From the IMG/VR virus record IMGVR_UViG_3300009790_000002, positions 1-29,323 of that record: DNA of 29,323 nucleotides. One strand, written 5' to 3'. The notes under the pieces are model-generated. The model was given only the letters and a program-made list of their open reading frames with translations, had not been told where the DNA came from and ran no database searches. Positions 4,068 through 29,323 of the stretch are shown piece by piece (position 1 is the first letter of the stretch; every line of letters begins with the position of its first letter). This stretch comes from a virus. The position numbers and the translations under genes are program-made.

Positions 4068-4386
4068 TTTTTATAGCTCTTATAGTTGAATAATATTTAT
4101 GGCTACTATCAAACATCTCATTTATTCTATATTCATTACTAGCGCCTTCTATTTGGAGTATGTCAGTATCTTGTATAGTATCTGCTGTTTTTTTTCTTAC
4201 AATTAATTCTATATCTGTATATATTTTTCTATGTACATTATCAGAATTAATATCTCCAGACATATCTTTTTTAAAAGCCCAAATAGTAGATACTGTAGCT
4301 TTAGTAGAACTAAACCCTCCATAACCATCAGCAGATTTAGTTAATCTTTTTACCACCACTCTAGTATCTAATTTTCCAGCATCCAT
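4060..4386 (-). CDS. Head closure / head-tail adaptor (SPP1 gp16-like)
   Basis: 108 aa. MDAGKLDTRVVVKRLTKSADGYGGFSS at the start and ELIVRKKTADTIQDTDILQIEG in the middle fit the phage head-tail joining family (SPP1 gp16/HK97 type): a strand-rich protein that closes the head below the connector. ATG at 4386 shares its first base with the stop of the upstream connector gene, and its end overlaps the gp10-like gene by 8 nt, so four connector proteins are likely made from one message. Confidence 0.85.
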   Translation of the reverse strand: MDAGKLDTRVVVKRLTKSADGYGGFSSTKATVSTIWAFKKDMSGDINSDNVHRKIYTDIELIVRKKTADTIQDTDILQIEGASNEYRINEMFDSSHKYYSTIRAIKID

Positions 4387-4943
4387 TATATAAATACATT
4401 TTTTTCAGAAGCTAGAAAATCTTTAACGCTAGAAGGGATGGTAGCTACAATAGTACCAGTTACAAAATCTGATCTATTATCATAATAAGTAGATACTAGT
4501 TGTTTTATAGCATGTTCATAAATAGCGCCTGTTAATCCTGAAGTAACATAAGTTATTTTTAATTCACTTGCAGGGAGGCTATCTAGCTCTATAATTTCAT
4601 TATTTAATCCTTTAGCTTCATATTCAGCAGCAGATCCATCTACTAAAACGGAACTAATACTAGCTACTGGAGCAAAAGGGAGATTTATCCTATCATTTAA
4701 ATAAGGAGTATAGATGCTTCTATTTTTAGCCACTATATCTTTTCCTAAATAATTTTCTATATTTATTCTAGCTGTAGTTATCATTTGAGCTATTATAGCA
4801 TCATCCGCAGAAGTATCAACTCTTAAAAAAGTTTTAGCTTCAGAGGTAGGAACTATCTCAGATCCTGTTACTGAATTAACTTTTATTTGATAGTGATAAT
4901 CTTGCGGATTCTCGCTTCTATAACCTTGAGTTTTAAATGCCAT
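4386..4943 (-). CDS. Head-tail connector protein (gp6/gp15-like)
   Basis: 185 aa. The stretch PTSEAKTFLRVDTSADDAIIAQMITTARINIENYLGKD is typical of the gp6/gp15 connector family (S..EaK.hLRvd...Dd.li..li..A...ie.yt...). The later part contains INLPFAPVASISSVLVDG and ITYVTSGLT, also typical. The protein forms the ring between portal and head-closure protein. It begins at ATG 4943, sharing one base with the stop of the small upstream gene. Confidence 0.88.
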   Translation of the reverse strand: MAFKTQGYRSENPQDYHYQIKVNSVTGSEIVPTSEAKTFLRVDTSADDAIIAQMITTARINIENYLGKDIVAKNRSIYTPYLNDRINLPFAPVASISSVLVDGSAAEYEAKGLNNEIIELDSLPASELKITYVTSGLTGAIYEHAIKQLVSTYYDNRSDFVTGTIVATIPSSVKDFLASEKNVFI

Positions 4944-5161
4944 TATTTAGATTTTTTACTAGATCTTTTTTTACTTTTTTTATCTTCTTTAGTTTCTTTA
5001 GCTGATTTATCTTCTTTTTTAGAAGGAGATTTTCCATCCCATTGCTCTGCTATATTAACTCTTAAATAATGATTTAGCTCTTTTCCTTCTAAATCTACTA
5101 TCTCACCTTCACGCCTCCAGCCATTCTGACTCCAAACGTCTTTTAACAATTTTACTTTCAT
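4943..5161 (-). CDS. Small head-associated protein with Lys-rich tail (72 aa)
   Basis: The first 40 residues (MKVKLLKDVWSQNGWRREGEIVDLEGKELNHYL) resemble a short beta-barrel-like fold found in small proteins encoded next to phage capsid genes. After RVNIAEQWDGK the rest is almost all Lys, Ser, Glu and Asp (residues about 48-72), probably disordered. It is the first gene of the connector operon, preceded by a promoter-like box at 5179-5186 and a terminator at 5182-5215. Function unknown; a minor head or connector role is plausible. Confidence 0.65.
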   Translation of the reverse strand: MKVKLLKDVWSQNGWRREGEIVDLEGKELNHYLRVNIAEQWDGKSPSKKEDKSAKETKEDKKSKKRSSKKSK

Positions 5162-5178
5162 AATAATATATTTTTATA

Positions 5179-5186
5179 CAAAAATA
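5179..5186 (-). promoter_or_regulatory. TAnnTTTG promoter-like box, connector operon
   Basis: Minus-strand TATTTTTG followed by TA, 17 nt upstream of the ATG at 5161 and directly after the terminator hairpin. It fits the Bacteroidota -7 box. No clear -33 TTTG could be assigned. Confidence 0.45.
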
Positions 5187-5215
5187 AAAAAAAAGCGCCA
5201 CTATACAGCAGCGCT
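5182..5215 (-). terminator. Rho-independent terminator after the nuclease gene
   Basis: On the minus strand the 5-bp stem AGCGC/GCGCT (5215-5211 with 5198-5194) has a 12-nt loop and is followed by nine T, A, then five T. It lies 64 nt beyond the stop of the PD-(D/E)XK gene and would separate the cassette from the connector operon. Confidence 0.7.
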
Positions 5216-5278
5216 CTTGAACAAAAAAACCAAACAAAAAAAGTTAAAACAAAAAAACTTCTTTGAAGAGAAACAAAA

Positions 5279-5659
5279 TTAGTATTTTTTTAATAAATCA
5301 AAGTTATTATAGTAGATTTTATTTAAGCCCTTTAGAGAGGCTCTAAAACTTTGTTGGGTGCCATTGTTAGGAAATATAAAAAACCCCTCATAGAAGTTGC
5401 TAAAAACAGCAAAAAAATCTACTTTTTCTTTTGTGTACTTAATACTATAGCTATGGATAGGAATTAAAACAGAATTTACTCTATCAGTTGGAATTTTTCT
5501 ACTAGACTTTATTTGAATTTTATAAATTTTTTTTCCATTATCTACAATACAGTCATAATGGCTAGAATCTAAAGTAGGCATAGAAACTATAAACCCTCTT
5601 TTAGTACACTCAGCGCAGAATAAATATTCCGCATAACATCCAAAACTATTATTGTTCAC
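5279..5659 (-). CDS. PD-(D/E)XK endonuclease-like protein (126 aa)
   Basis: The sequence G-CYAEYLFCAECTKRG, then SSHYDCIV and KIYKIQIKSS fits the PDDEXK_5 group of restriction-like or Holliday-resolvase-like nucleases: candidate active residues E11, D36, Q49 and K51. The start is GTG at 5659; an in-frame TGA lies immediately upstream and the first Glu motif would be lost with later starts. The gene is isolated between two terminators and a 7-bp hairpin touches its start codon. In this setting it could process DNA junctions or attack host or rival DNA. Substrate unknown. Confidence 0.75.
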   Translation of the reverse strand: MNNNSFGCYAEYLFCAECTKRGFIVSMPTLDSSHYDCIVDNGKKIYKIQIKSSRKIPTDRVNSVLIPIHSYSIKYTKEKVDFFAVFSNFYEGFFIFPNNGTQQSFRASLKGLNKIYYNNFDLLKKY

Positions 5660-5679
5660 TCAGCTAGGTTTAAGCTAAG
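5659..5679 (-). other. Hairpin touching the GTG start of the nuclease gene
   Basis: Minus-strand CTTAGCT pairs with AGCTGAG (one G-U pair) around a 7-nt loop. The last paired G is the first base of the GTG start at 5659. It could limit translation, or fold with the terminator just upstream; effect not known. Confidence 0.4.
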
Positions 5680-5681
5680 TT

Positions 5682-5709
5682 AAAAAAAAACCTCCAGAAT
5701 ATCTGGAGG
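5682..5709 (-). terminator. Strong Rho-independent terminator
   Basis: Perfect 8-bp stem CCTCCAGA/TCTGGAGG with a 3-nt loop (5709-5691), followed on the minus strand by nine T. It ends the transcript of the small genes 7191-5797. Confidence 0.85.
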
Positions 5710-5710
5710 C

Positions 5711-5779
5711 TCTAAACTATAATTGAATAAACAGAGTAATAAAATAACTAATTAAAAAAGGTAATTATCATAGTTTAGA
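5711..5779 (-). other. Long-range inverted repeat; possible structured 3' RNA
   Basis: TCTAAACTAT at 5711-5720 is the exact reverse complement of ATAGTTTAGA at 5770-5779, a 10-bp perfect stem enclosing 49 nt. One base separates it from the terminator hairpin at 5691-5709. No protein gene fits in 5662-5796. It could be a small RNA or a 3' untranslated structure protecting the message. Confidence 0.4.
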
Positions 5780-5796
5780 TTTAATTAAAAATCAAT

Positions 5797-5949
5797 TTAT
5801 TTTTCATGTATAAAAACAGCTACCGCTAAAAGAGCCATCATTATAGCATCTACAGCAGCACCATATCTATATAATAGAGAGATTCCCCAAAGTGAGAAAA
5901 AACCTACTAAAAAATATTTAACTGTTTGAGCGTTTATTTTTTTTTTCAT
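5797..5949 (-). CDS. Small membrane protein (50 aa), cassette gene
   Basis: Starts MKKKINAQTVKYFLVGFFS at ATG 5949 and stops with TAA at 5797. The ATG overlaps the TGA of the upstream gene (ATGA). Two hydrophobic segments, about residues 11-26 and 31-47, are joined by LYRYGAAVD, so it probably forms a membrane hairpin. It ends IHEK. No family is recognised. It is the last gene before a strong terminator in a cassette of unknown genes; superinfection exclusion or membrane-acting functions are common for such proteins but nothing here proves it. Confidence 0.65.
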   Translation of the reverse strand: MKKKINAQTVKYFLVGFFSLWGISLLYRYGAAVDAIMMALLAVAVFIHEK

Positions 5950-6101
5950 ATATATAAGATTAAATTAAACAATAAAATAAAAACAAAATTAGCCACAACA
6001 TAAGATAAAAAAAATATAGCTAGAATTTCATAAGCAAATCTTTTCTTTAATTTTTGTTGTTTCTCTATTCTATTTAGAATTTCTAAATTTCTAGTATTCA
6101 T
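5946..6101 (-). CDS. Small membrane protein (51 aa), cassette gene
   Basis: ATG at 6101 gives MNTRNLEILNRIEKQQKLKK, a charged amphipathic N-terminus, followed by one strong hydrophobic helix (about residues 27-50, FLSYVVANFVFILLFNLILY). The frame is open upstream to 6179, but that start would overlap the preceding gene by 47 nt, so 6101 is preferred. The stop TGA overlaps the next ATG. It pairs with the 50-aa membrane protein, suggesting that they act together. Function unknown. Confidence 0.55.
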   Translation of the reverse strand: MNTRNLEILNRIEKQQKLKKRFAYEILAIFFLSYVVANFVFILLFNLILYI

Positions 6102-6132
6102 ATAAATTAAATTAGTTATACAATAAGAAGAT

Positions 6133-6342
6133 CTAATTATCAATAACTCTACAGATTTCAAAAGGATTTTTTTTATCAAAATCTAAATCCTCTATAAAAT
6201 TTTCTGCTAATTGCCTACTATTAAAAAGTCTAGCTTTATTGAACTTATCAGACCATTCTTTTTTTTTAGTTAAAAAGAGCTGAGGCTCTTTATACACAAC
6301 AAAGAAAACTAATTCTTTATTAATTTTTATTTTGCTTTTCAT
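6133..6342 (-). CDS. WS-FNKA family small protein, copy B (69 aa)
   Basis: Begins MKSKIKINKELVFFVVYKEPQ. The middle, LTKKKEWSDKFNKARLFNS followed by AENFI, matches the neighbouring 85-aa protein at many positions (K.P..LT...WS..FNKA..FNS...AE..I..L). The two genes are therefore tandem paralogues, this copy lacking the last 15-20 residues. Soluble, mixed strand and helix pattern. No known domain is recognised. Confidence 0.65.
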   Translation of the reverse strand: MKSKIKINKELVFFVVYKEPQLFLTKKKEWSDKFNKARLFNSRQLAENFIEDLDFDKKNPFEICRVIDN

Positions 6343-6353
6343 TATTTAATTTG

Positions 6354-6611
6354 TTATGTTACCTCTGATCTGTATTCTATATGATAATTATTCTTATAAA
6401 TGCATACATCCCAGACAGTTCTAATATTTGCCTTTCTTAATTTTAAAGTTCTTATTTTTTCTTCTGCCTCTGATTTAGAATTAAAATCATGAGCTTTATT
6501 AAAGTTACTGGACCATTTATTATTTTCTGTTAAGTATTCTGGTCCTTTTGTTATGATGAAATAATTAATGTCTTTTATTTCTTTTATTGTATCATCTAAG
6601 TAATTGTCCAT
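6354..6611 (-). CDS. WS-FNKA family small protein, copy A (85 aa)
   Basis: Begins MDNYLDDTIKEIKDINYFIIT, followed by KGPEYLTENNKWSSNFNKAHDFNS and an EAEEKIRTLKLRKA helix, then VWDVCIYKNNYHIEYRSEVT. It is a paralogue of the next gene downstream (6133-6342), sharing the WS..FNKA..FNS core. The pattern strand-WS-helix resembles short phage proteins of unknown function. ATG at 6611 follows an 11-nt gap from the previous gene. Confidence 0.65.
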   Translation of the reverse strand: MDNYLDDTIKEIKDINYFIITKGPEYLTENNKWSSNFNKAHDFNSKSEAEEKIRTLKLRKANIRTVWDVCIYKNNYHIEYRSEVT

Positions 6612-6622
6612 TTTTGTTTTTT

Positions 6623-6895
6623 TTATTCTACTAAATTTTTTTCCGTTAAATTATATTTATCTAAAACTGCTTCTAGCTTTTTATATATTTTTTTATACTT
6701 ACCCTCTACATGAATACAGCTTCCATTTAAAGAAATATACCAGCCTTTAAAAACTATTGATACATCACTACCTAAACTCCAGAGATCATTCATCCATTGT
6801 AGTTGTACTTTGTTTTCTCCATCCTCCCACTCTATAATATTAGGGAGGGAGGAAGTTTTTAAAAATTCCATTTGATCTTTTATAATTTTTCTCAT
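6623..6895 (-). CDS. Hypothetical protein, cassette gene (90 aa)
   Basis: Starts MRKIIKDQMEFLKTSSLPN at 6895, overlapping the stop of the upstream gene by 4 nt (ATGA). The middle is strand-rich with several Trp (IIEWEDGENKVQLQWMNDLWSLG, FKGWYISLNG), ending in a helical KKIYKKLEAVLDKYNLTEKN. No signal peptide or membrane span. I do not recognise the family. Translation is supported by coupling and normal codon use for this genome. Confidence 0.6.
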   Translation of the reverse strand: MRKIIKDQMEFLKTSSLPNIIEWEDGENKVQLQWMNDLWSLGSDVSIVFKGWYISLNGSCIHVEGKYKKIYKKLEAVLDKYNLTEKNLVE

Positions 6896-7191
6896 AAATA
6901 TTTAGAATAGCCTGAAGATCTAGGGAGGAAGTTTTTTTCTTTATTTACAAGCCCAATAATATCATGAGTAAGAACATCTCTTATAAGACCATAAGAATCA
7001 TTTACATTTAATGCTTTTTGATTTTCTATATACCTTACAAATCCTAAAAGATCTTTTTGAGTTTCTTCTTTTGATGAATTTATTAAGTGATTAAATATAA
7101 CATGAACTACATTACTAGTTTCACAATATTTTTTATAAACCCTTAAAACTTGAATAGCTAAAGGAGGTTCTTTTGTTTTATTTGTTTCCAT
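6892..7191 (-). CDS. Hypothetical protein, first main gene of the cassette (99 aa)
   Basis: Starts METNKTKEPPLAIQVLRVYKK, mainly helical with SKEETQKDLLGFVRYIENQK and LIRDVLTHDIIGLVNKEKN. It ends LPRSSGYSKYL, with its stop overlapping the next ATG. It is preceded by a 5' leader of about 160 nt and a well-formed promoter at 7362-7393. No family is recognised; the small helical form would suit a protein-binding inhibitor or regulator, which is only a guess. Confidence 0.6.
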   Translation of the reverse strand: METNKTKEPPLAIQVLRVYKKYCETSNVVHVIFNHLINSSKEETQKDLLGFVRYIENQKALNVNDSYGLIRDVLTHDIIGLVNKEKNFLPRSSGYSKYL

Positions 7192-7355
7192 TTTTTTTTG
7201 TTTTAATTATAGGTCTTTTAATTTGTCTGTGAGTAGGTGCGACCATTTTACACCCTTTTATAATTTATAGGATTATTCCTTTGTAGTATTTAAGCTAGGT
7301 AACTCTGACCTTTTACTCATTTTCCTTTAGTTAATTAATAACTTTGCTATCAACT
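7192..7355 (-). other. Leader region of the cassette with two possible mini-ORFs
   Basis: No gene of usual length lies between 7192 and 7484. On the minus strand the presumed transcript from about 7355 first meets a 15-codon ORF (ATG at 7320, MSKRSELPSLNTTKE, TAA at 7273), then a 22-codon basic ORF (ATG at 7246, MVAPTHRQIKRPIIKTKKNGNK, ending 7178) that overlaps the next gene's start by 14 nt. Either could be a leader peptide; neither is proven. Confidence 0.3.
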
Positions 7356-7361
7356 ACAAAA

Positions 7362-7393
7362 CAAACTTATAATAAATTTTTAAATATACCAAA
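7362..7393 (-). promoter_or_regulatory. Bacteroidota-type promoter of the cassette
   Basis: Minus-strand TTTG (7393-7390), a 20-nt spacer, then TAAGTTTG (7369-7362). This fits the Bacteroidota -33 TTTG / -7 TAnnTTTG arrangement, the only site here with both boxes well placed. It lies between the capsid terminator and the cassette genes. Confidence 0.7.
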
Positions 7394-7431
7394 CTTTTTT
7401 TATAAAATATTAAAATATTTTTTATCTATAT

Positions 7432-7460
7432 AAAAAAAAAGAGGACCTAAAAAGATCCTC
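7432..7460 (-). terminator. Rho-independent terminator after the major capsid gene
   Basis: Minus-strand stem GAGGA(T)CT with AG(G)TCCTC, 5 bp plus 2 bp around one mismatch, 4-nt loop, followed by nine T. It begins 24 nt beyond the capsid stop at 7485 and ends the head operon. Confidence 0.8.
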
Positions 7461-7484
7461 CTTTTAACTAATTTACTCTAAACC

Positions 7485-8696
7485 TTATGAAGTCTCTAGA
7501 GCTGTTTTAGCTGTGCTAAATGTCCCCTGAATAATTGCATTGGGCGCATATATAGCTAGTCCGCCTCTAAGTTGAGCACGGCATGTTACAAAGTTGCTTT
7601 GGAAGTTCGTACCATCTTCTCTTGAAAACTCGATAGAGAGATTTTCTCTAATCCAGTATTGACAAGCTGATCTTGAATCCATAACAGCAAACTTACCATT
7701 TGGAACCGCAGTATTAAGAGTAATTGGAACTCCATTTATTGCAGGCTGGATGCCTTGAATAATTTGGTTTCTCAAATACTCATTAGCTGTAGATTTAAGT
7801 AATACGATTTTATGGAAATCCGTAGGATTAACTAAAATAGTATCAGCTTGATAGTTGTTAAGAGCTAACTGGTTTAATGCTACAATTAAAACATCAAACT
7901 CATTAGCTGACTCTACAGACTGATAAAACAAACCTCCGCTAGAAGTAGTGAAAGCAGTTCCTGAAGTTAGGATCCCTTCCATGTTAGGGCTTGATCCATC
8001 TCCGCTCATTAACTCATTATCCTCTACAGATAGAACCTTTCCAGGTACTCTAGCTGCTAAGTAAGAAGATAAACCAGGAGTATCTTGAAGCATCTCGTCA
8101 GTGAGCTTTAAAAAACATCCCACCTTCTCCATCTCAACTGAGGTCGCAGTTACATCGAAGTCCGACTGTCCTAAGGCTGCTCCCTGAGCTTTGGCTGCGC
8201 CATTGTCAGTATAAGCAGACTCTTTAGGGAATCTTACTACTTGTGCATTTGTAGATCCATTAGGAATTAAATTTCTAATGTGAACAGATCTAGAAGGATC
8301 CCATTTGAAATCTTCTATAACTTGCTCTGCTGCTACTACTCCAGTATAAGTATTAGCTATTGTCATATCACTAGACTTCATTTCAAATCTAGCAGCATTA
8401 TGACTGCCTTTTCTCATATTGTCAATAGCTCCATCATTAAAGGCTTTTTCTAATTTACCTTTAAAGTTTAGTTGTGTAGAATTTTCAGCATCTTTTTTTC
8501 TAGCTAATTCTACGTCATCCATCCTTTTAGTTTGTGCATCAAATTTAGATACAAACTCTTCAGATAGATTTTTAATTTCTGCTTTAAGAATAGAATCATA
8601 TTCATTCTTTGCATTGTCTTTAATCTGACCTGCTGCCTTTTCAATTCTCTCATCTACTAAGTTGCCGATCTGATCTAAGTGCTTATTATCATTCAT
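7485..8696 (-). CDS. Major capsid protein, HK97 fold
   Basis: 403 aa. Residues about 1-80 are charged and helical (KNEYDSILKAEIKNLSEEFVSKFDAQTKRMDD), as expected for the scaffolding delta-domain removed by the prohead protease. The mature part has typical features of the HK97 major capsid family, including DFKWDPSR, FPKESAYTDNGAAKAQGAALGQSDF, LKLTDEMLQDTPGLSSYL, LMSGDGSSPNMEGIL and ADTILVNPTDFHKI. It directly follows the S78 protease (ATGA overlap) and ends the head operon before a terminator. Confidence 0.95.
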   Translation of the reverse strand: MNDNKHLDQIGNLVDERIEKAAGQIKDNAKNEYDSILKAEIKNLSEEFVSKFDAQTKRMDDVELARKKDAENSTQLNFKGKLEKAFNDGAIDNMRKGSHNAARFEMKSSDMTIANTYTGVVAAEQVIEDFKWDPSRSVHIRNLIPNGSTNAQVVRFPKESAYTDNGAAKAQGAALGQSDFDVTATSVEMEKVGCFLKLTDEMLQDTPGLSSYLAARVPGKVLSVEDNELMSGDGSSPNMEGILTSGTAFTTSSGGLFYQSVESANEFDVLIVALNQLALNNYQADTILVNPTDFHKIVLLKSTANEYLRNQIIQGIQPAINGVPITLNTAVPNGKFAVMDSRSACQYWIRENLSIEFSREDGTNFQSNFVTCRAQLRGGLAIYAPNAIIQGTFSTAKTALETS

Positions 8697-14023: not shown

Positions 14024-15682
14024 TTAATCTTTTTCAGTTATTATTACTTTAGTATCTCCATTTAAAACCCTATAAAATCCTCCATTAATAAAATCTGGTG
14101 CTATTTCAAATATACCTTGAGAACCATTCTCTCTTCTCTTAACTTTTTGTACATGAATCTGAATTAAATCAGATCCAAATTTAGTCCTGTTGCCTAATTT
14201 TCTAAAAACTGTTAAGCAATTAAAACTCTTATTAAAAAAATCTGCTGAAGATGATATATCATAAGGAGTAGGAACTTTATAGGTTTTATTAAAATATTCC
14301 ATTTTTCTAGGATGTGCCACTAAAAATAGATGTGTGTTAGTTTTTTGACAAAACTGAGTAATTCTACTTAATGTTTTTGATATATAAGATAAATTATATT
14401 GGTCCTCATGCTGTAATAAATTATAAGGATCTATAACACAAATATTAATTCCTTTTCTAAAAACTAAATCTTTAAACTTATCTAATATATTTTTAAGAGT
14501 TATATCTTCTAAATCTATTTTAATAAAAAAGAAATGATCTTCTATAAAATCTTTAGTTTTATTTAATAATTCTTTGTCGCAATTAGTAGAATTAATTTTA
14601 TTAGCCAGCCTTCTTATATGTGCCTCATAAGGAAAAGACTCAGGAGAGAACATAGCTATTTTATGACCATGCATTAAAGCCAGATTAACACAAATTTGAT
14701 CTAAAAAATCTGATTTTCCGCTATTAGGAATACCAGTAATTGTGGACCATTCTCCCATCATAACCTTAAAAACTGAATCAGATCCTAAGCCTATAGAATA
14801 GTTCTTTACGCCTTGATCCTCCCAGTTTAAAACATTATTCCAAATATTATCAATATTTACAACTCCCTCTAAAGGAAAATCTAAAGGATTATTTATTATT
14901 TCTCTAAGTTCAGTAGATCCTTTATTAATTAATACCTCATTTGCATCCTTATACTCTTTAAAATCTAAATACTGGCATCTATACTGCCCAAATCTTCTAG
15001 CCAATTCATGCCTTAGAGATAAGCCACTTACATCATTATCAGTACAAATTATTATTTTTTCTTTGTCTTTAAAATATTCCCAACAATTATCTAAATATTC
15101 TAACCTTTGTGAGCCTTTAGAGGCTCCATTAGGTACTGAACAAACTGAATAAATGCCTACCTCATGAAAAGAAAGAGCATCTATTTCGCCTTCTGTTACA
15201 TATATTGTAGTGCTATTTTTAATATTATCTAAACCATAGAAAATTAATTCTGCTCCTGATACTAGTTTAAAATTTTTATCAGCATCTCTATATTTAACAT
15301 TAACTAAATCCCCATCTCTATAGTAATTAAAATTAATAGCCGATCTTTTTCTTTTATTTTGAGCAAAATATTCTTTGCTTTCTGTTATTTTCCAATTAGC
15401 TAAAGTAGATTCCGTTATTGCCCTATCATCAAACCATTTTAATAATTTTTTAGAAAGTCCTGATCTATTTTCTACTGGTTTTACAAATTCTTTCTTTTCT
15501 TTTATTTTTACGTTTCCCTTCCATCCGCAATAATGACAATTATATAACCCTTTTAAAATATGAACCGATAAAGATTTATCAGTTTTATTTTTTCTGTTAT
15601 TACTACATTTAGGACATTTCAATTTTTGTTTTACAGCATTTCCAGCAGGAGTTATGCCTATTTCTATAAAATCTTCAAACAT
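14024..15682 (-). CDS. Primase-helicase, T7 gp4/Twinkle type
   Basis: 552 aa. The N-terminus has a zinc site, CPKC at 23-26 and CHYC at 49-52. The TOPRIM primase domain follows, with YVTEGEIDALSF (about 161-172) and IICTDNDVSGL (about 211-221). The RecA-like DnaB-type helicase has Walker A GIPNSGKS (317-324), FSPES (345-349), Walker B INICVIDPYN (412-421) and HLFLVAHPRK (451-460). One protein would unwind DNA and make primers at the phage fork. It is the last gene of the early block and is followed at once by a promoter-like box. Confidence 0.94.
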   Translation of the reverse strand: MFEDFIEIGITPAGNAVKQKLKCPKCSNNRKNKTDKSLSVHILKGLYNCHYCGWKGNVKIKEKKEFVKPVENRSGLSKKLLKWFDDRAITESTLANWKITESKEYFAQNKRKRSAINFNYYRDGDLVNVKYRDADKNFKLVSGAELIFYGLDNIKNSTTIYVTEGEIDALSFHEVGIYSVCSVPNGASKGSQRLEYLDNCWEYFKDKEKIIICTDNDVSGLSLRHELARRFGQYRCQYLDFKEYKDANEVLINKGSTELREIINNPLDFPLEGVVNIDNIWNNVLNWEDQGVKNYSIGLGSDSVFKVMMGEWSTITGIPNSGKSDFLDQICVNLALMHGHKIAMFSPESFPYEAHIRRLANKINSTNCDKELLNKTKDFIEDHFFFIKIDLEDITLKNILDKFKDLVFRKGINICVIDPYNLLQHEDQYNLSYISKTLSRITQFCQKTNTHLFLVAHPRKMEYFNKTYKVPTPYDISSSADFFNKSFNCLTVFRKLGNRTKFGSDLIQIHVQKVKRRENGSQGIFEIAPDFINGGFYRVLNGDTKVIITEKD

Positions 15683-15729
15683 AATTTTTCTTTTTTTGGT
15701 TAGTTTTTTTTATTTTTTTAATTGGTTTT

Positions 15730-16221
15730 TTATAATTTATCTACTTTAATTTTATAAGCTTCTAAATGCTGTATATCGGATTTTTTTACTAATAAACAGA
15801 GATCTTTTCTATTCCATTTTTTTCTAGTGTACCATCTATAATAGACTTTTAAGTCTGATTTTTGCTTAAATTGTCTAGCAAATTTCATTAAATTCTCTCT
15901 TTTATAAAAAATAAATTCGTTAATTTCTTTATAAAACATTACAATATATTTTGCCTTACCTAACAGCCATCCATCATGCCCATAATTTCCTTTTGCTTCA
16001 AGCCAAACCTGATCACAAAAATCTCTATGCTTTACATCATATCCTATCCCATTAATAAAAAAATCTATATGCTGATATTTATTTTCATTTACTGTAGCTC
16101 TTCTAATATTTTTAAAATTTGTATTTAGTTTGCCTAAAACATTAATAACATAGAGGAATAATTCTTCTGTAGAAGCGCCTGCTCTTCTTTGTTCTTTCAT
16201 TCTTTTGCTTTCGTAATTCAT
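15730..16221 (-). CDS. Probable PD-(D/E)XK-fold protein (163 aa)
   Basis: STEELFLYVINVLGK, then QHIDFFINGIGYDVKHRD, gives a possible nuclease signature: E20, D53, then D62-V-K64, with WLEAKG further on. The second half is basic and Trp/Tyr-rich (YYRWYTRKKWNRKD), which suits DNA binding. The start MNYESKRMKEQRR is at ATG 16221. It lies between a repeat-rich gap and the primase-helicase, so a role in replication or recombination, such as a resolvase or single-strand nuclease, is plausible. The fold assignment is mine from motifs and is weaker than for the other nucleases here. Confidence 0.55.
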   Translation of the reverse strand: MNYESKRMKEQRRAGASTEELFLYVINVLGKLNTNFKNIRRATVNENKYQHIDFFINGIGYDVKHRDFCDQVWLEAKGNYGHDGWLLGKAKYIVMFYKEINEFIFYKRENLMKFARQFKQKSDLKVYYRWYTRKKWNRKDLCLLVKKSDIQHLEAYKIKVDKL

Positions 16222-16311
16222 TTAGGCGTATATAATAGTATATATATTTTTTTATTTTAGGTATAATTGTATATTATATATAATAGTATATATTATATAA
16301 TTATATACTAT
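16222..16311. repeat. AT-only repeat and palindrome region; candidate replication origin or operator
   Basis: The 86-nt gap holds two exact copies of TATATAATAGTATATA (16229-16244 and 16277-16292). ATAGTATATA of the second copy is repeated inverted as TATATACTAT at 16302-16311, forming a 10-bp palindrome with 9-nt spacer. Direct plus inverted repeats in an easily melted region beside genes for a DnaA-like protein and a primase-helicase suit an origin. A regulatory operator is the alternative. Confidence 0.45.
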
Positions 16312-16559
16312 GCTTTTTTAACTGTTCTTTTTAAGTTTTTTAGAAAATCCATAAACTCCTCATAAAGATATATTACCTCTGGAGTAGTTATTAATTCATC
16401 TCCAAACTTTTCAAATAAAACTTGCAGCAATATTTCAAACTCATTCTCATTAGCTAATCCGATAAAAGAATAATTAGTAATATTAGAGAAGTTATTACTA
16501 TTAGAAAATCTAATTTTTTGCCTCTCTTGATCCCAGAAAATCATCCTTTTTTTAAACAT
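16308..16559 (-). CDS. Hypothetical protein (83 aa)
   Basis: MFKKRMIFWDQERQKIRFSNSNN at the start, then FIGLANENEFEILLQVLFEKFGDEL and a helical end (EEFMDFLKNLKRTVKKA). Start ATG at 16559 overlaps the VRR-NUC stop by 8 nt; its stop lies in the right arm of the AT palindrome. Soluble and probably helical in its second half. No family is recognised. It is probably an accessory to the adjacent nuclease or replication proteins, judged only by position. Confidence 0.6.
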   Translation of the reverse strand: MFKKRMIFWDQERQKIRFSNSNNFSNITNYSFIGLANENEFEILLQVLFEKFGDELITTPEVIYLYEEFMDFLKNLKRTVKKA

Positions 16560-16923
16560 TTTTCATGTAATTATCTATTCGATCCAAAATTTCATCCAGC
16601 GAATTACTCCAAAATACCTCCCAATTTCTATTTTCAAGCTCTCTAAGGCACTTTTTTTGGTTCTCTGTGGGTTTGTTATACCCTGCTTTAATTTCTATCG
16701 CTAAACCGCTTAAATTTGATTTAGGATCAAAAATCATAACATCAGGCATTCCAGCTACTGCTCCCAAAATTTTAAATTTATATTGTTCAAACCTTGTTCT
16801 CTTGCCTTCATTTGGTATATGTACAACAAAACATTGAGGATATTGAGCCTTTATATAGTTCATAACCGCAATTTGAATCTTGTCCTCTTTTGTTAAATAT
16901 TTTTGGTAAGGGTTTATACTCAT
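16552..16923 (-). CDS. VRR-NUC domain nuclease
   Basis: 123 aa, all of it the VRR-NUC fold of the PD-(D/E)XK superfamily: EDKIQIAVMNYIKAQYP (E13), VVHIPNEGKRT, GAVAGMPDVMIFDP (D61), LAIEIKAG (E77, K79), KPTENQKKCLRELENRNW (Q89) and WSNSLDEILDRI. Stand-alone VRR-NUC proteins are common in phages and are thought to act on flaps or junctions. The first 38 or so codons are also read in another frame by the DnaA-like gene (116-nt overlap). The first conserved Glu sits inside this overlap, so the start cannot be moved past it. Confidence 0.92.
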   Translation of the reverse strand: MSINPYQKYLTKEDKIQIAVMNYIKAQYPQCFVVHIPNEGKRTRFEQYKFKILGAVAGMPDVMIFDPKSNLSGLAIEIKAGYNKPTENQKKCLRELENRNWEVFWSNSLDEILDRIDNYMKNV

Positions 16924-17290
16924 AATCTACATTTACATCAGACTCAAAATAATTTTCAGCTAGATTAATATAATCTTTTGCCTTAATTAATTCTTTTACA
17001 TCTTTAGATATTTCTTCAAATTTCGTAAAATAATTAATATCTTGAGTCAAAAGGCTATCTAATTGTCTTATACTATGCAATACTGTAGCATGATTTAATT
17101 TACAATTAGGAAGAGAATTTCCTATAGATCTTAAAGTCCTTCCTGGAGAAATTAATTTAAGCATAGCAAAATAAATTCTTCTAGCATCTATTATCCATCT
17201 CAGTCTAGATCTTTTATCAATATCTACCCTAAAAGTATTATTAACAATATTTTTTATAGTAGAATCTAAATCTTTAATATCTTTTTTCAT
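16808..17290 (-). CDS. DnaA domain IV-like DNA-binding protein
   Basis: 160 aa. Residues about 28-80 resemble the DNA-binding domain IV of DnaA: DARRIYFAMLKLISPGRTLRSIGNSLP followed by NHATVLHSIRQLDSLL, near the DnaA signature DH.TVl.a...i. There is no ATPase domain, so it cannot be a full initiator. It could bind the phage origin or titrate host DnaA sites. The last 39 codons overlap the VRR-NUC gene out of frame and look like a non-conserved extension (YKGSISSMFCCTYTK). Confidence 0.8.
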   Translation of the reverse strand: MKKDIKDLDSTIKNIVNNTFRVDIDKRSRLRWIIDARRIYFAMLKLISPGRTLRSIGNSLPNCKLNHATVLHSIRQLDSLLTQDINYFTKFEEISKDVKELIKAKDYINLAENYFESDVNVDYEYKPLPKIFNKRGQDSNCGYELYKGSISSMFCCTYTK

Positions 17291-17292
17291 GT

Positions 17293-17469
17293 CTATATTG
17301 GCATTATTTTATATCCGAAAGGATTAAAGATTAAATTTAATATCCAAAATATAAGTATATAAATAGGTATTTCAATTAAAAGTTGTAACCATAAAGGTTG
17401 CTTTAATTTCCATTGTCTAAATTTATTTTTACTTATTTTTTCTAAAAAATTATTATATATTTTTTTCAT
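17293..17469 (-). CDS. Small membrane protein (58 aa) in early block
   Basis: ATG at 17469 and TAG at 17293, two bases before the DnaA-like ATG at 17290 and 5 nt after the exonuclease stop. It begins MKKIYNNFLEKISKNKFRQW, with a basic N-terminus, then a strongly hydrophobic helix (about residues 28-47, LQLLIEIPIYILIFWILNL) and ends NPFGYKIMPI. One transmembrane span with a basic cytosolic tail is likely. Membrane proteins inside replication blocks may anchor the replisome or act in superinfection exclusion. Function not known. Confidence 0.6.
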   Translation of the reverse strand: MKKIYNNFLEKISKNKFRQWKLKQPLWLQLLIEIPIYILIFWILNLIFNPFGYKIMPI

Positions 17470-17474
17470 AATTT

Positions 17475-18275
17475 TTATAATAATAAAGATCCGTCAAATA
17501 AAAGATCATTGTCTTTAAATCTATTTTCCTCTCCAGTTTCTAAATAGTGTTTCCATTCATTTATAGCATACTTATAAGCTTTTCTCCCATCATTTATCTG
17601 TTTATTATTTAAAGTAGTTACAACTATTCTAAAAGGGTAGTTTTTCTCCATCCAAATAAATTTAAAATTATCTGGATCTATAGATAGCATATCACTATAA
17701 AAAACAGCTTGTAGATTATAGGCAAAATTCCAAACATGAGAATTAAATTGCTTTGCTCCAAAGCCATCAGTATAATTAAAAGAAGCAGATTTTATATCTG
17801 ATATAAAACCATCTCCTAATAAATCTGGTCTTACTCTAACATCTACTCCATCATAGTTTAAATAGTGAGATAATTCAGCTTCTCCTACTAAATATTCTTT
17901 AGCTAAAACGCTCATAGGGAGGCTTTTATCATTTAGATTAGTTTCTAAACCTTTTAAAATTAAATGATCTTCATAACTAACTAATTTTCTGCCTTCAGAT
18001 TGATCTAAATAACCATTATAAATAGCTTTTCCTTCTTTAGTTCTTTTATCTACCTTCTGATCTAAACAATAATAGTTCTTATTAAATTCTTCAGGTTCTA
18101 AAAAAAACTCATGAATTAAACTTCCTAAAAAATATGCAGGTTTATCTTGATAGATTTTCCTATTATAATCAAAAACGCTAGTGAGAAAAATACTTTTTAA
18201 CCCACTAGCGCTAATTGATTTGCTTGTATGATACTGCTTGTTAGTATCTTTTTTTACAACCAAATTTTTAATCAT
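17475..18275 (-). CDS. RecE/DUF3799-like exonuclease (PD-(D/E)XK)
   Basis: 266 aa. QYHTSKSISASGLKSI at the start, FLGSLIHEFFLEP (H55), VGEAELSHYL (E133), VRVRPDLLG (D151), ISDIKSAS (D160, K162) and NLQAVFYSDML (Q189) give the full set of motifs of the RecE-type/PDDEXK_1-like phage exonuclease family. It would resect double-stranded ends to leave single strands for the annealing protein encoded two genes upstream. The SSB-like gene lies between the two. Together they make a Red-like recombination module. Start ATG at 18275 follows 11 nt after the SSB-like stop. Confidence 0.9.
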   Translation of the reverse strand: MIKNLVVKKDTNKQYHTSKSISASGLKSIFLTSVFDYNRKIYQDKPAYFLGSLIHEFFLEPEEFNKNYYCLDQKVDKRTKEGKAIYNGYLDQSEGRKLVSYEDHLILKGLETNLNDKSLPMSVLAKEYLVGEAELSHYLNYDGVDVRVRPDLLGDGFISDIKSASFNYTDGFGAKQFNSHVWNFAYNLQAVFYSDMLSIDPDNFKFIWMEKNYPFRIVVTTLNNKQINDGRKAYKYAINEWKHYLETGEENRFKDNDLLFDGSLLL

Positions 18276-18286
18276 GTTATTTAATT

Positions 18287-18556
18287 TTAAAATGGAGAAT
18301 CATCATTATCCGCTCCTCCCATTCCATCAGGTCTGAGGGTGCAAATATTAATTTTAGAATCTTTAGGATCTTCTGCATCTTTATTCCAGAAAGTAATAGA
18401 TATATTTCCTTCTGCCCATTTTGCGCCTTGTACTTGTATTTGATTTCCGTACTCCTTATGCTTCCTTATGGCTTCAGGAATTTTTTTTATTTTATCTAAG
18501 TTATCTGTTTGTATGTATCCCCAGTATTTTTCTACTGGTCCATTGTTTTTACTCAT
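18287..18556 (-). CDS. Small SSB-like protein with acidic DDSPF tail
   Basis: 89 aa beginning MSKNNGPVEKYWGYIQTDN and ending GGADNDDSPF. The tail is like the C-terminal DDDIPF tip of bacterial SSB, which docks partner proteins. The body (NQIQVQGAKWAEGNISITFWNKDA) is strand-rich and could be a shortened OB-like fold, though I do not recognise a named family. Between the exonuclease and annealing genes, ssDNA binding with recruitment of recombination partners is the obvious hypothesis. Confidence 0.6.
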   Translation of the reverse strand: MSKNNGPVEKYWGYIQTDNLDKIKKIPEAIRKHKEYGNQIQVQGAKWAEGNISITFWNKDAEDPKDSKINICTLRPDGMGGADNDDSPF

Positions 18557-18576
18557 AGTTTTAAATTTTAAATTAA

Positions 18577-19128
18577 TTAATTGTTTTTAGTGTGTAATTT
18601 AGTTAGAGCTTGAGTTTGTTCTATTGTAAGCTCTCTGGTTTGAATGGCTTTTCTAGCCAAATCTTTATCTTTTTTTTGATAAAGTTTATTATATTCAGTA
18701 TCTGAGATATAATCTTTTTCTCTAGTCCATGCATTTAATCCTAAACCATGTAAAGCGCAGCCTTTTGCTAATGCTCTCATAATTGTATTAACTACATCTG
18801 TAGAATTAATATTTTCTTTTGGAATTGAGTTATTTCTGTTATCCATTATGGCTAAATCTACTATATGAGATATATTATTAACTGTAACTTTAACCACAAC
18901 CCAACCAGAATTATCATTAGTAAAATAATTATAATTGTTTGTCTTATCTCTAATAACTCTATAATTAGACTCAGGATGTTTTAATTTTAATCTATCCCAT
19001 GCCTTAGCCCAATTTAAATAATCTAAACCGCCTTTTTGTTCAAAGTGATTTCTTACTGGTATTTCTCTAAGATTTAGATAATAATTATTATCATCATCTT
19101 CTTTGATGTTTTTTTTGTTTTTTTCCAT
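18577..19128 (-). CDS. Single-strand annealing protein, Sak3/DUF1071-like
   Basis: 183 aa. After an acidic start, GGLDYLNWAKAWDRLKLKHPE (about residues 33-53), SGWVVVKVTVNNISHIVDLAIMDN and TDVVNTIMRALAKGCALHGLGLN follow the pattern of DUF1071 phage annealing proteins (L.YLSWAwAW ... V...  ... LPVMD ... iN.timR.l.KnlA.fGLGL). These Sak3-type recombinases anneal single strands in phage recombination. The C-terminal part, QTRELTIEQTQALTKLH, is helical. It is one of the first early genes, before SSB-like and exonuclease genes. Confidence 0.88.
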   Translation of the reverse strand: MEKNKKNIKEDDDNNYYLNLREIPVRNHFEQKGGLDYLNWAKAWDRLKLKHPESNYRVIRDKTNNYNYFTNDNSGWVVVKVTVNNISHIVDLAIMDNRNNSIPKENINSTDVVNTIMRALAKGCALHGLGLNAWTREKDYISDTEYNKLYQKKDKDLARKAIQTRELTIEQTQALTKLHTKNN

Positions 19129-24906: not shown

Positions 24907-25640
24907 CTAAGATTTTTCTTTTAATGAATCTTTGTTTTTATTTCTCTCTATCTGTTTCATAAACTTCTCAAAGGCTTCTCTTGTAGATTTAGGCTTTTGT
25001 TCTTTTTTAATATTGTCATGAGGTAATTTAATTAAATCTTCTGGCTTTTTCATTTGACTTTTTTTAGAGCAGTTTACGTTATGTATCATAGTAGCTAAAT
25101 ATCTCAATCTTTCCCATTCCAGATTTTGCTTTATATTATAAGACTCTCCTAAAAGCTGATTTTCAGACCATGTATTTGACCAAAAAAGGTCAGGCTGAAT
25201 CCCAACCTGACCAATATAATAATCTAATAAATCATCCCAACCTACTCTGGTGGTTTCTCTGGAGTCTGAGTTTCCGTTTTTTTTTCTTCCTCTGGGTTTC
25301 TTTTAATTCCCATGTTAAGCTCATTCCCTAAAATTTTAGAGTTCATCATAGCCTCTACAACTCCATTTAATTCTTTAGGATCCATCTCATCTAACCAGGC
25401 TCCTACAGTATAAATATTATACTCTATTTTCTTGTTATTTTCTCTATCAAAAGTAACTAAACCAGAAAATATTAATGCTCTTATAGCTGATAGTGATACT
25501 CCTCCTTCAAATATCTCTCCTAACTGTTCTAACTTTATCCCTAATTGATCACAAAACTCAGCCCAAAAATTCATGTTGAATCTCATCACTCTATCCTCTC
25601 CACCTAAGTTGAGAGTATAGTAACCTCTTTTGCTATTCAT
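24907..25640 (-). CDS. Tail assembly chaperone, -1 frameshift fusion (G-T type), 244 aa
   Basis: The upstream reading frame (from ATG 25640) meets A AAA AAA at 25284-25278. A -1 slip there continues as NGNSDSRETTRVGWDDLLDYYIG and remains open to 24907, adding 123 residues. The extension has GQVGIQPDLFWSNTWSENQLLGESYN and WERLRYLATMIHN, typical of the second part of lambda GT-like chaperones. A TTG 'start' at 25107 lies inside this extension and is not a separate gene. GT binds the tape measure during tail assembly; the ratio of G to GT is normally set by frameshifting. Confidence 0.85.
25182..25212 (-). terminator. Terminator-like hairpin inside the GT extension
   Basis: GGTCAGG pairs perfectly with CCTGACC (25212-25206 with 25194-25188), 11-nt loop, followed by six T on the minus strand. 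It lies just after the G stop at 25242, within the GT-coding sequence. It could weaken transcription into the tape measure or be a chance result of coding. Confidence 0.4.
25242..25640 (-). CDS. Tail assembly chaperone, unshifted product (G type), 132 aa
   Basis: ATG at 25640 (MNSKRGYYTLNLGGEDRVMRF), followed by MNFWAEFCDQLGIKLEQLGEIFEGG and ALIFSGLVTFDRENNKK, then YTVGAWLDEMDP, typical of gpG/TAC-type chaperones. It ends acidic and Pro/Thr-rich (EEEKKTETQTPEKPPE) with TAG at 25242. It lies between the tail tube and the tape measure, the conserved place for this gene. Most ribosomes are expected to finish here; some shift at the A9 run near its 3' end. Confidence 0.9.
   Translation of the reverse strand: MNSKRGYYTLNLGGEDRVMRFNMNFWAEFCDQLGIKLEQLGEIFEGGVSLSAIRALIFSGLVTFDRENNKKIEYNIYTVGAWLDEMDPKELNGVVEAMMNSKILGNELNMGIKRNPEEEKKTETQTPEKPPE
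25278..25284 (-). promoter_or_regulatory. -1 frameshift slippery heptamer A AAA AAA
   Basis: In the zero frame the codons are GAA AAA AAA ACG; the run is nine A at 25285-25277. Slipping back one base places the ribosome in the frame that stays open for 123 codons. This is one of the canonical slippery heptamers. No convincing stimulatory hairpin was found within 10 nt downstream. Confidence 0.8.
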
Positions 25641-26546: not shown

Positions 26547-29323
26547 TTAAGCTTCTGCCCAACTTATATTGTCCTCTCCAGCAGTAAAGGTTGTTATTTT
26601 AAATCCAGATACAGAAGAAGTATCTGTGCTACTTGTTAAACTACCTCCTACTGTAATATTTAAACTATCTGGATATTTTACTATAACTACTCCAGAACCA
26701 CCAGCTCCAGAGTTGTTTCCTGACATAGCGCCAGTTCCGCCACCGCCACCACCTCCAGTATTTGCAGTTCCATCAACACCCACAGCACCTCCGCCACCAG
26801 CTGAGGCAGTACCATCAGTTCCACTATATCCGCCACCAGCACCTCCACTAGCATAATAAGTACTTGATCCATCTGAGCTAATTGTAGTAGCATAACCAGC
26901 ACCACCATTTCCAGAGGCAGAACTTGTAGCATCCCCTCCAGCACCACCAGCTCCACCGCCTCCTCCTCCAAAATAAGTAAAAGGATATGTGGTATATCTT
27001 CCATCTCCTCCATCACTTCCTAAAGATCCAAAACTAGCTTCATTTTTAACACTATCTCCTCCAGCAGTATAACCATTGTCATTTCCACCACCACCAGAAC
27101 CACCATCAGCAGCGGCAGTTGTTCTCTTAGCTGCTCTCCCTCCTCCATTACAAGTATAATTAAAAGCTACACTTTGACCACTAGCAGTTAAAAATTTTGT
27201 ATCGTTTCCACTTGTTTCACTACCTACAGAGTCCGATCCTCCAGCACCTATTCCGACTGTATAGTTAGAACTTAATTCAATTTCCTGACCAGTAATAACT
27301 AGGAATTCTCCAGCTCCACCGCCTCCGCCTCCTAAGTTTACTGACGAACCAGAGAGCTGACCTGTGGAACATCCACCACCACCACCAGCAACAACTAAGC
27401 AACTGATTTCTATTGGTGCTGCTGCTAATACTTCCGTTCCTTCATTTGCTGCTCCAGCAATTAACCATCCTTTGGTATCTCCAGAAAAAACAAGTTCAAC
27501 CATTTGATTTTTTCCATCTAGAGCCATATCATCAGTGGAAGCTAAAATCTTTTTAGATGAAGTTAATACTGCTGAGTTAGTTTGAAAAGTTGCCGCATAA
27601 TCTAAAACAGCTACTACATCTCCAGCTGAAGGGCTTGAAGGTAGAGTTGCTGTAACAGCACCACTAGAAGTATCTATAAAATAACCTTTTCCTGATACTA
27701 CTGTAAAGTTTGAAGTTTTAGCAGTAGTTTCCCATTCTACTCCTCCACCGCCACCTCCAGCAGATACCGCAGTATCTACATAAGCGGTAGTAGCTACTTT
27801 AGTAGAATTATCTGAGGCGCTTTGAGTAGTAGCTGTAACTCCATTTGGTAAAGCTGCTGAATCATGTATCTTAGCGCCAGTTACAGCATCATTAGCTATA
27901 GTAACAGCGCCTGCATTTGTCATAGTTACATCTCCACTAAGAGAAGCAGCAGTAAATCCTGAGCCATCCCCTATAAGTATTTCAGTATCAGCTACAGCTT
28001 TTGCGCTTAAATCTCCAGAGCTATTAGCATCTCTAACTATTACTGTATTTGCTGCTTGATCTGCTATCTTAGCTAGTGTTACATTTCCATCTAATATTTT
28101 AGCTGTTACTACAGCATCATCAGCTAGAGTAAAAGCAAAATCTAATTTGTCATTAGTATCATCATAAGTAACAACAATTCCACCAGATTCAGTATTTCCA
28201 GAAACCATAGCTCCTACTATATCTTCTACCTGCTCTGCTGTTAATTGTGTATCTGTATCAGTTACAGTATTAGTAAAAGTAATTTTATCTCCATCTCTAG
28301 CTATTGTTAATCCAGTACCAGCCTCTAGTACCACAGCATCAGTACTAGAATCAGATCCAGTTAATACTATTTTTTCTTCATCTGAATTATCTCCATCAGC
28401 AGCAGATACTGTGTAAGTAGGTTTAGCGTCTAATTGAGTTTGAATAGCACTAGTAACGCCATCTAAATAGCCCAACTCTGTAGATGTAACAGCAGATACA
28501 GCCACCTTTCCACTACCATTAGAAACAACCGCTCTACTAGCTGTTAAGTCTGTATCATCTATAGTTGTAGCAGCACCTGTTATAGTAGCTTGTTTAGAAT
28601 CTATCTGAGTTTGAATAGCAGATGTAACACCATCTAAATAACCTATCTCAGTATCAGACACTCCAGACACTATAGCTTGTTTACCATCTATCTGAGTTTG
28701 AACAGCACTAGTAACACCATCTAGATAACCTAATTCAGTATTAGTTACAGCAGATACAGTAACTTTCCCTGTAGCGTTAGATATTAAAGCTCTATTTGCT
28801 GTTAGGTCTGTATCTGTTATAGTAACAGCTCCTCCAGTAATTGTAGCCTGCATGCTATCTAGCTGACCTTGAATACCAGAAGTTACTCCATCCAAATAAC
28901 CTAATTCAGTATCTGTTACATCTGATACTGCCACCTTCCCACTTGAATTAGATACTACAGCCCTTGAAGCGGTTAAGTTTGAACCAGTAACAGTAGTAGT
29001 AGCTCCTGTAAGAATAGCCTGCTTTGAATCAATTTGAGTCTGGACCGCAGAGGTTACTCCATCTAAATATCCTAATTCTGTAGATGTAACATCTGATATA
29101 GCTATTTTCCCTGAAGCGTTTGAAATAACTGCTCTAGATGCTGTTAAATCAGTATCATCTATAGTAGTAGCTGCTCCTGTGATAGTTGCCTGTTTTGAGT
29201 CTATTTGAGTTTGTATAGCTGAGGTTACTCCATCTAAGTAGCCTATTTCTGTATCTGATACTCCAGATACTATAGCCTGCTTCCCATCTATTTGAGTCTG
29301 TATGGCAGAAGTTACTCCATCTA
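26547..29323 (-). CDS. Repeat-containing tail fibre, C-terminal part (glycine-rich adhesin tip)
   Basis: This continues the gene that begins at 1141; bases 29201-29323 duplicate 1-123. The frame is open past the GTG at 28934, so that codon is internal. It carries the rest of the YLDGVTS repeats (to about residue 640), then a region with TKVATTAYVDTAV, a motif common in phage fibres. Residues of about 978-1223 are a glycine-rich domain beginning LVVAGGGGG and ending SGVVIVKYP. Such Gly-rich tips are known as adhesin or receptor-binding modules in other phages. The stop is TAA at 26547, and the next gene starts 18 nt on. As assembled there are ten YLDG/YLSG repeats, seven long and three short. 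The tip's receptor role is inference. Confidence 0.9.
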   Translation of the reverse strand, partial: DGVTSAIQTQIDGKQAIVSGVSDTEIGYLDGVTSAIQTQIDSKQATITGAATTIDDTDLTASRAVISNASGKIAISDVTSTELGYLDGVTSAVQTQIDSKQAILTGATTTVTGSNLTASRAVVSNSSGKVAVSDVTDTELGYLDGVTSGIQGQLDSMQATITGGAVTITDTDLTANRALISNATGKVTVSAVTNTELGYLDGVTSAVQTQIDGKQAIVSGVSDTEIGYLDGVTSAIQTQIDSKQATITGAATTIDDTDLTASRAVVSNGSGKVAVSAVTSTELGYLDGVTSAIQTQLDAKPTYTVSAADGDNSDEEKIVLTGSDSSTDAVVLEAGTGLTIARDGDKITFTNTVTDTDTQLTAEQVEDIVGAMVSGNTESGGIVVTYDDTNDKLDFAFTLADDAVVTAKILDGNVTLAKIADQAANTVIVRDANSSGDLSAKAVADTEILIGDGSGFTAASLSGDVTMTNAGAVTIANDAVTGAKIHDSAALPNGVTATTQSASDNSTKVATTAYVDTAVSAGGGGGGVEWETTAKTSNFTVVSGKGYFIDTSSGAVTATLPSSPSAGDVVAVLDYAATFQTNSAVLTSSKKILASTDDMALDGKNQMVELVFSGDTKGWLIAGAANEGTEVLAAAPIEISCLVVAGGGGGCSTGQLSGSSVNLGGGGGGAGEFLVITGQEIELSSNYTVGIGAGGSDSVGSETSGNDTKFLTASGQSVAFNYTCNGGGRAAKRTTAAADGGSGGGGNDNGYTAGGDSVKNEASFGSLGSDGGDGRYTTYPFTYFGGGGGGAGGAGGDATSSASGNGGAGYATTISSDGSSTYYASGGAGGGYSGTDGTASAGGGGAVGVDGTANTGGGGGGGTGAMSGNNSGAGGSGVVIVKYPDSLNITVGGSLTSSTDTSSVSGFKITTFTAGEDNISWAEA
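28420..29323. repeat. Tandem fibre repeats, right part
   Basis: This continues the YLDGVTS repeat array across the circular join. It contains four long units and one complete short unit, followed by the join-spanning short unit. Long units have the order LTASRAVVSNxSGKVAVS, then TELGYLDGVTS, then IQTQxDxKQ. Confidence 0.85.
29201..29323. repeat. Terminal direct repeat, right copy
   Basis: Exact copy of bases 1-123. Removing one copy joins 29200 to 1 and keeps the tail-fibre reading frame open, which supports circularity. It lies inside a repeat-rich gene, so the true number of fibre repeats could still be misassembled. Confidence 0.9.

Follow-up and report, generated by a model that had tools for sequence, protein, structure and literature searches.

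Morons, a type of accessory locus described in lambdoid phages, have a promoter and a terminator of their own. The homing endonuclease I-Ssp6803I is the product of a group I intron within a cyanobacterial tRNA gene. In T4-like phages, SegH and Hef replace mobC and mobE, so that unlike endonucleases are swapped at one site, segD lies at 23/24, adjoining the capsid gene, and some free-standing endonuclease genes are directly preceded by a hairpin and a late promoter (PMC2988022). In the homing endonuclease gene islands and nuclease-bordered exchanges described by Barth et al. 2023 (PMC10448857), a nuclease gene borders a variable segment beside essential genes. Here we analyzed IMG/VR virus record IMGVR_UViG_3300009790_000002 over its 29,323 nucleotides (from here on, the window) and focused on the locus at 5191-7465, between the major capsid protein (MCP) gene and the head-tail connector genes. 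We read this locus, with a probability of about 0.6, as a moron-type accessory island of two stand-alone units that carries a free-standing homing-type endonuclease. The window, which comes from a small marine flavobacterial phage, is a complete genome of 29,200 unique bases because its first and last 123 bases match exactly (positions 1-123 and 29201-29323, a circular or terminally redundant record), and all its main genes are on the minus strand, as are all features of the island described below.

Relatives were collected by MCP-based scans of IMG/VR and a nuclease-based scan and clustered at 95%, which left 64 distinct loci within the group, window included, each spanning MCP to connector; eight of them had been fetched with the nuclease itself. 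Promoters and terminators in the window were called as sequence signals, with shuffled sequences or expected counts as the control. Judged by these signals, the locus is built of two stacked units that appear to be transcribed separately, the first consisting of a promoter, cargo genes, small membrane genes, and a terminator, and the second of a weak promoter, the nuclease gene, and a terminator. The head operon, which includes the MCP gene (7485-8696; PF05065, E value 5.8e-33), ends at terminator 1 (7436-7465), a 13-pair stem followed by a T-run that is present in 64/64 loci. The first unit would be read from a promoter at 7362-7393 (-33 TTTG, -7 TAAGTTTG, predicted start near 7357) as far as terminator 2 (5687-5713), and a terminator stands ahead of the nuclease in 57 of 63 loci. 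The second unit has a weak -7 box read from the sequence (TAACTTAG, 5675-5682), with a box of a looser pattern in 48/48 relatives, and ends at terminator 3 (5191-5218; present in 62/63). The connector operon has a -7 box of its own (TATTTTTG, 5179-5186) immediately past the T-run of terminator 3, and TAnnTTTG was found right after the T-run in 37/37 loci, compared with 6.4 in shuffles. The three terminators are the strongest within the first 20 kb, with 12-13 pairs each, and on their account we rejected a single operon with the head genes; terminator-like sites as a whole numbered 14 against 5.3 expected. Another strong terminator was noted at 25188-25212, downstream of the gene at 25242-25640.

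The match at 7362-7393 is the sole strict match on the coding strand, but, taken alone, it is no better than chance (2 matches against 1.3 expected). In many relatives, however, the promoter pattern lies ~90-105 bases past the MCP stop codon, and a relaxed scan detected TT(T/G)G-N17-23-TAnnTT(T/A)(G/A) after terminator 1 in 20 of 49 relatives, compared with 0.9 in shuffles. Because the pattern recurs at a conserved position, we take the cassette promoter to be real and rejected a chance match, which would be plausible for the window by itself. A preliminary description of this DNA, made from the window alone, had placed three terminators around the island and had singled out this promoter as the best in the genome. 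Both claims are borne out, the second by the relatives, although its inventory of promoters omitted the weak -7 box of the nuclease unit and that of the connector operon. The flavobacterial -7 box covers positions -12 to -5 (PMC9723704). The connector box lies 15-16 nt ahead of the ATG in 32 of 37 relatives, and a -33 box was found in 0/37. In the nuclease unit of relatives, the box and the start codon are often just 3-5 nt apart, so that leaderless nuclease messages are predicted in those phages, and the start codon is TTG or GTG in 58 of 86 uncut nuclease copies; the box in the window is ~15 nt from the GTG, and its message would thus not be leaderless. The first cassette gene of relatives starts roughly 20-50 nt past the promoter, compared with a long predicted leader of ~165 nt in the window (7192-7356), which has two possible micro-open reading frames of 15 and 22 amino acids. 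We also noted a TTTGGTT motif ~63-73 nt before the start of the 72-amino acid gene that follows the island, ahead of the terminator (near 5230 in the window), in 20 of 37 relatives, compared with 1.9 in shuffled sequences.

The nuclease gene lies between the MCP and connector genes, just before the 72-amino acid and connector genes, in 63/64 loci, and in 55/56 when the eight loci fetched with the nuclease are excluded. The exception, L020, has a nearly empty site: only 130 bp and one terminator-promoter junction separate its MCP gene from the 72-amino acid gene, and the nuclease is absent throughout its 28.9-kb contig. Other relatives have three such junctions, which indicates that each inserted unit adds one promoter and one terminator, as expected from the logic of a moron. 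Further, in Cellulophaga phage phi12:1, which is outside the group, the MCP and connector genes are ~70 bp apart; phi10:1, also outside it, has two small genes at this site, and Flavobacterium phage 11b, likewise outside, has several small unknown genes past its MCP gene. A nucleotide search of annotated phages did not reveal a cassette like that of the window, and scans of prokaryote genomes that depend on short exact peptides did not reveal relatives of the MCP or the nuclease. The locus thus resembles a moron in having its own promoter and terminator (as sequence signals), in lying between genes that are adjacent elsewhere, and in being absent from one relative with joined flanks. It differs from one in that two units are stacked and in that we have no evidence of lysogeny or prophage expression (no search was aimed at an integrase). 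Taken together with cargo that differs between close relatives, this sustains the self-contained, moron-like insertion proposed in the preliminary description.

The second unit encodes a 126-amino acid protein with a GTG start (5279-5659), which matches PF11645 (PDDEXK_5) with an E value of 6.7e-11 and 42.8 bits against a gathering cut-off of 26.1, in agreement with its earlier assignment as a PD-(D/E)XK protein. A sequence search of solved structures returned 2OST, the I-Ssp6803I homing endonuclease, as the top match (E value 0.003). An AlphaFold model of the nuclease has a predicted local distance difference test (pLDDT) value of 93, and, when it was compared with 350,542 chains by Foldseek, the top four matches were all chains of 2OST (E value 9e-8, template modeling score up to 0.79), followed by archaeal Hjc resolvases as the runner-up. 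According to the model, the nuclease has the I-Ssp6803I fold. It resembles I-Ssp6803I in fold, length, the order of the active-site residues Glu-11, Asp-36, Gln-49, and Lys-51 (E11/D36/Q49/K51), and Pfam family, but it is a stand-alone phage gene, and the identity is only about 18-20%. The four active-site residues are invariant in 60/60 nuclease sequences, and broken copies were not found among the representatives. The median ratio of nonsynonymous to synonymous substitution rates (dN/dS) is 0.14 for the nuclease, compared with 0.11 for the MCP and 0.10 for the connector, which points to purifying selection and led us to reject diversifying selection.

Comparison of close relatives shows that phages that are otherwise nearly identical have exchanged the nuclease gene, with breakpoints very close to the two ends of the gene. 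In L071 and L078, the sequence around the nuclease is 98-100% identical, but the nuclease reading frame itself has only 55% amino acid identity; the two alleles diverge from the third codon up to about 30-40 bases short of the end of the gene. The two phages also differ by one more cargo gene, through a separate gain or loss. The pair L025 and L027 displays a similar pattern. Conversely, the nucleases of L027 and L060 are 96% identical in diverged surroundings (connectors 67%), consistent with horizontal movement between backbones. The nuclease is also a stand-alone reading frame between conserved genes, as expected of a free-standing homing endonuclease, and its presence and absence alternate at orthologous sites, the MCP site (1 empty of 64) being one. 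Between TerS and TerL of other phages, the same nuclease family is found in 25 of 48 contigs and is absent in 23. In its place, L259 has an HNH_3 endonuclease gene (by Pfam), and L265, L268, and L271 apparently have an HNH endonuclease too (by motif); the remaining sites contain different genes or, in L270, nothing. At a holin-endolysin site, also in other phages, the nuclease is present in 6 contigs and absent in 8 close relatives. As a separate observation, the TerS-TerL sites of L251 (3955-4695) and L272 (3928-4668), from which the nuclease is absent, encode a 246-amino acid protein that looks ParB-like by eye but has no Pfam match.

Taking the unit structure, the empty site, the variable cargo, the predicted fold, the invariant active site, the gene-precise allele exchange, and the presence and absence at other sites as they are read from the sequence, we infer cleavage, homing, and low expression and timing of the nuclease in the following way. 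The island site would be a permissive junction in the late gene order. Unit 1, from the promoter at 7362-7393 to the terminator at 5687-5713, would hold exchangeable cargo by the promoter and small membrane genes toward its end, and unit 2, from the -7 box at 5675-5682 to the terminator at 5191-5218, would express an I-Ssp6803I-type PD-(D/E)XK endonuclease. At low expression, the nuclease may cut the genomes of relatives in the same cell if these have another allele or no such gene, and repair from the nuclease-bearing genome would then spread the gene. With one promoter and one terminator per unit, neither the upstream head operon nor the downstream connector operon would be disturbed.

Several observations weigh against this homing interpretation, chief among them the near-fixation of the nuclease and swaps that leave the flanks unconverted. 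First, occupancy of 63/64 sites is unusual for a homing gene, as such genes are typically patchy in distribution. Second, co-conversion of neighbors was not seen in the three swaps examined, which stop at the ends of the nuclease gene, and, because the flanks in these swaps are near-identical, the target cannot simply lie in the flanks. Ordinary recombination in conserved flanks would yield the same picture. Third, the nuclease tree largely follows those of the MCP and connector at clade level, which indicates that much of the history of the nuclease is vertical. Finally, unlike intron-encoded I-Ssp6803I, the nuclease is not accompanied by a group I intron with an Rfam match within the window. 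The T4-like seg and mob genes are a close parallel in that stand-alone nucleases lie between conserved phage genes and replace one another at one site. However, they are GIY-YIG or HNH enzymes of patchy distribution, whereas here the enzyme is a PD-(D/E)XK protein and is nearly fixed, and preferential inheritance has been shown for them and is a prediction for the window nuclease. Unlike the homing endonuclease gene islands of Barth et al. 2023 (PMC10448857), the island has a single PD-(D/E)XK gene on one side only, and exchange of the nuclease and of the cargo looks independent.

Between the capsid and connector genes, where the preliminary description had counted at least seven genes, seven minus-strand reading frames encode, in order, proteins of 99, 90, 85, 69, 51, 50, and 126 amino acids and are followed by the 72-amino acid gene (4943-5161), which is conserved among relatives, and the connector gene (4386-4943; PF05135, E value 8.6e-9; phrog_442). 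Relatives were not found for the first two, gA99 (6892-7191) and gB90 (6623-6895), and a peptide scan gave no relative of gB90 in IMG/VR. The 85-amino acid (6354-6611) and 69-amino acid (6133-6342) proteins are tandem paralogues of one family (c7), as had been proposed, with 37% identity over 59 amino acids (E value 3e-11), and the pair is limited to near relatives. The paired small membrane proteins of that description are also there: the 51-amino acid (5946-6101) and 50-amino acid (5797-5949) reading frames overlap by 4 bases, and both have the appearance of membrane-spanning proteins. The former has a hydrophobic segment and is conserved in position, not in sequence; the family of the latter is kept beside the nuclease, and many of the relatives have a homologue. 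None of the six small proteins had a usable match in Pfam, PHROGs, NCBIfam, or PADLOC, and an AlphaFold model of the 85-amino acid paralogue was of low confidence (pLDDT 58) and was not used for a fold search. Across the 63 occupied loci, 284 genes lie ahead of the nuclease and fall into 80 families, of which 46 are singletons. Members of 48 families occupy the first position after the promoter and members of only 10 the last, and a membrane-like gene is within the last three cargo genes in 60 of 63 cassettes. Cargo beside the promoter is hypervariable, and the genes beside the nuclease are conserved. Co-conversion as the source of the variable cargo finds no support in the three swaps, in which nuclease and cargo exchange were separate events. 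In L002, two successive cassette genes are each preceded by an intergenic unit of ~65 bp (hairpin and leader; 4705-4780 and 5090-5155), and the two units are almost alike, as if repeated junctions join cargo genes.

Among other explanations, the nuclease, perhaps together with the small membrane proteins, may exclude competing phages in co-infection or superinfection and be kept for that benefit rather than as a selfish gene. The membrane-like genes kept close to the nuclease and the exchange of alleles, which would fit a weapon used against a changing set of competitors, make this a possibility worth keeping in mind, but the nuclease also occupies sites away from the island in other phages, its dN/dS gives no sign of diversifying selection, and a terminator divides the two units in nearly all relatives. 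It is rather doubtful that the phages have domesticated the nuclease as an enzyme for resolving Holliday junctions or branched DNA, or for trimming DNA for packaging, with the island as a stable accessory part of the phage group. Purifying selection, near-fixation, the archaeal Hjc resolvase as second-best structural match (E value 6e-6), and the position of the nuclease gene next to terminase genes in other phages would all fit. However, a VRR-NUC gene was found in 15/15 long contigs tested, including that of L020, which lacks the nuclease, and this makes a resolvase role less likely and led us to reject the nuclease as the only resolvase; further, the nuclease is missing from or swapped for an HNH endonuclease gene at other sites, and its alleles are exchanged precisely. 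In the window itself, genes for a Sak annealing protein, an ExoVIII-like exonuclease, a DnaA_C-like protein, VRR-NUC, and primase/helicase proteins lie at 14024-19128, ahead of the terminase and head genes and in the same direction. We would suggest only tentatively that the island is a "competition and cargo" locus that has become fixed in marine flavophages, in which the nuclease would be a selected, allele-specific weapon among co-infecting relatives, beside a promoter-driven slot that exchanges host-interaction genes, with terminator-promoter fusions insulating both units from the virion operons; a role in host interaction for the cargo and membrane genes is itself a guess.

The preliminary description had suggested anti-defense, exclusion, or host takeover and had called the island the best candidate for an undescribed system. 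A host-type promoter of its own, small hypervariable genes, and some nucleotide-metabolism genes in relatives would suit a coordinated anti-defense or host takeover module; the sporadic cargo of relatives includes DUF3310 and dATP/dGTP diphosphohydrolase-type genes. We nevertheless consider such a module unlikely, as PADLOC gave only weak matches on the island, none of them convincing as a known defense-related family, and most relatives have different first genes, which leaves no conserved system besides the nuclease and membrane genes. The island gave no positive sign of any of the three roles. Nor is the idea of one system supported: the island consists of two separate units, and its nuclease comes from a known homing endonuclease family and moves independently. 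The description had also stated that the same genes at the same place in all relatives, transcribed with the head operon, would indicate core virion genes; the nuclease and small membrane genes do occupy the same place in 63/64 loci, but the units have separate transcription signals, and the remaining genes vary. That the island is made up of core genes for the virion or its assembly, belonging to the head operon, is suggested by the constant position between MCP and connector but is highly improbable and was rejected, given that L020 lacks the whole island, that MCP and connector are so close in phi12:1, that the units have their own promoters and terminators, and that cargo varies among close relatives.

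Overall, should the nuclease prove to be a free-standing homing enzyme, the PD-(D/E)XK homing family would reach beyond introns to phage genes in intergenic positions, and this widespread marine phage group offers dozens of natural nuclease alleles together with gene-precise swaps. The island also constitutes a mapped slot for the exchange of small genes in flavophages, with a short list of candidates for anti-defense or exclusion, and is a clear example from nature of the way in which a promoter-terminator unit may be inserted between virion genes with no disturbance to them.

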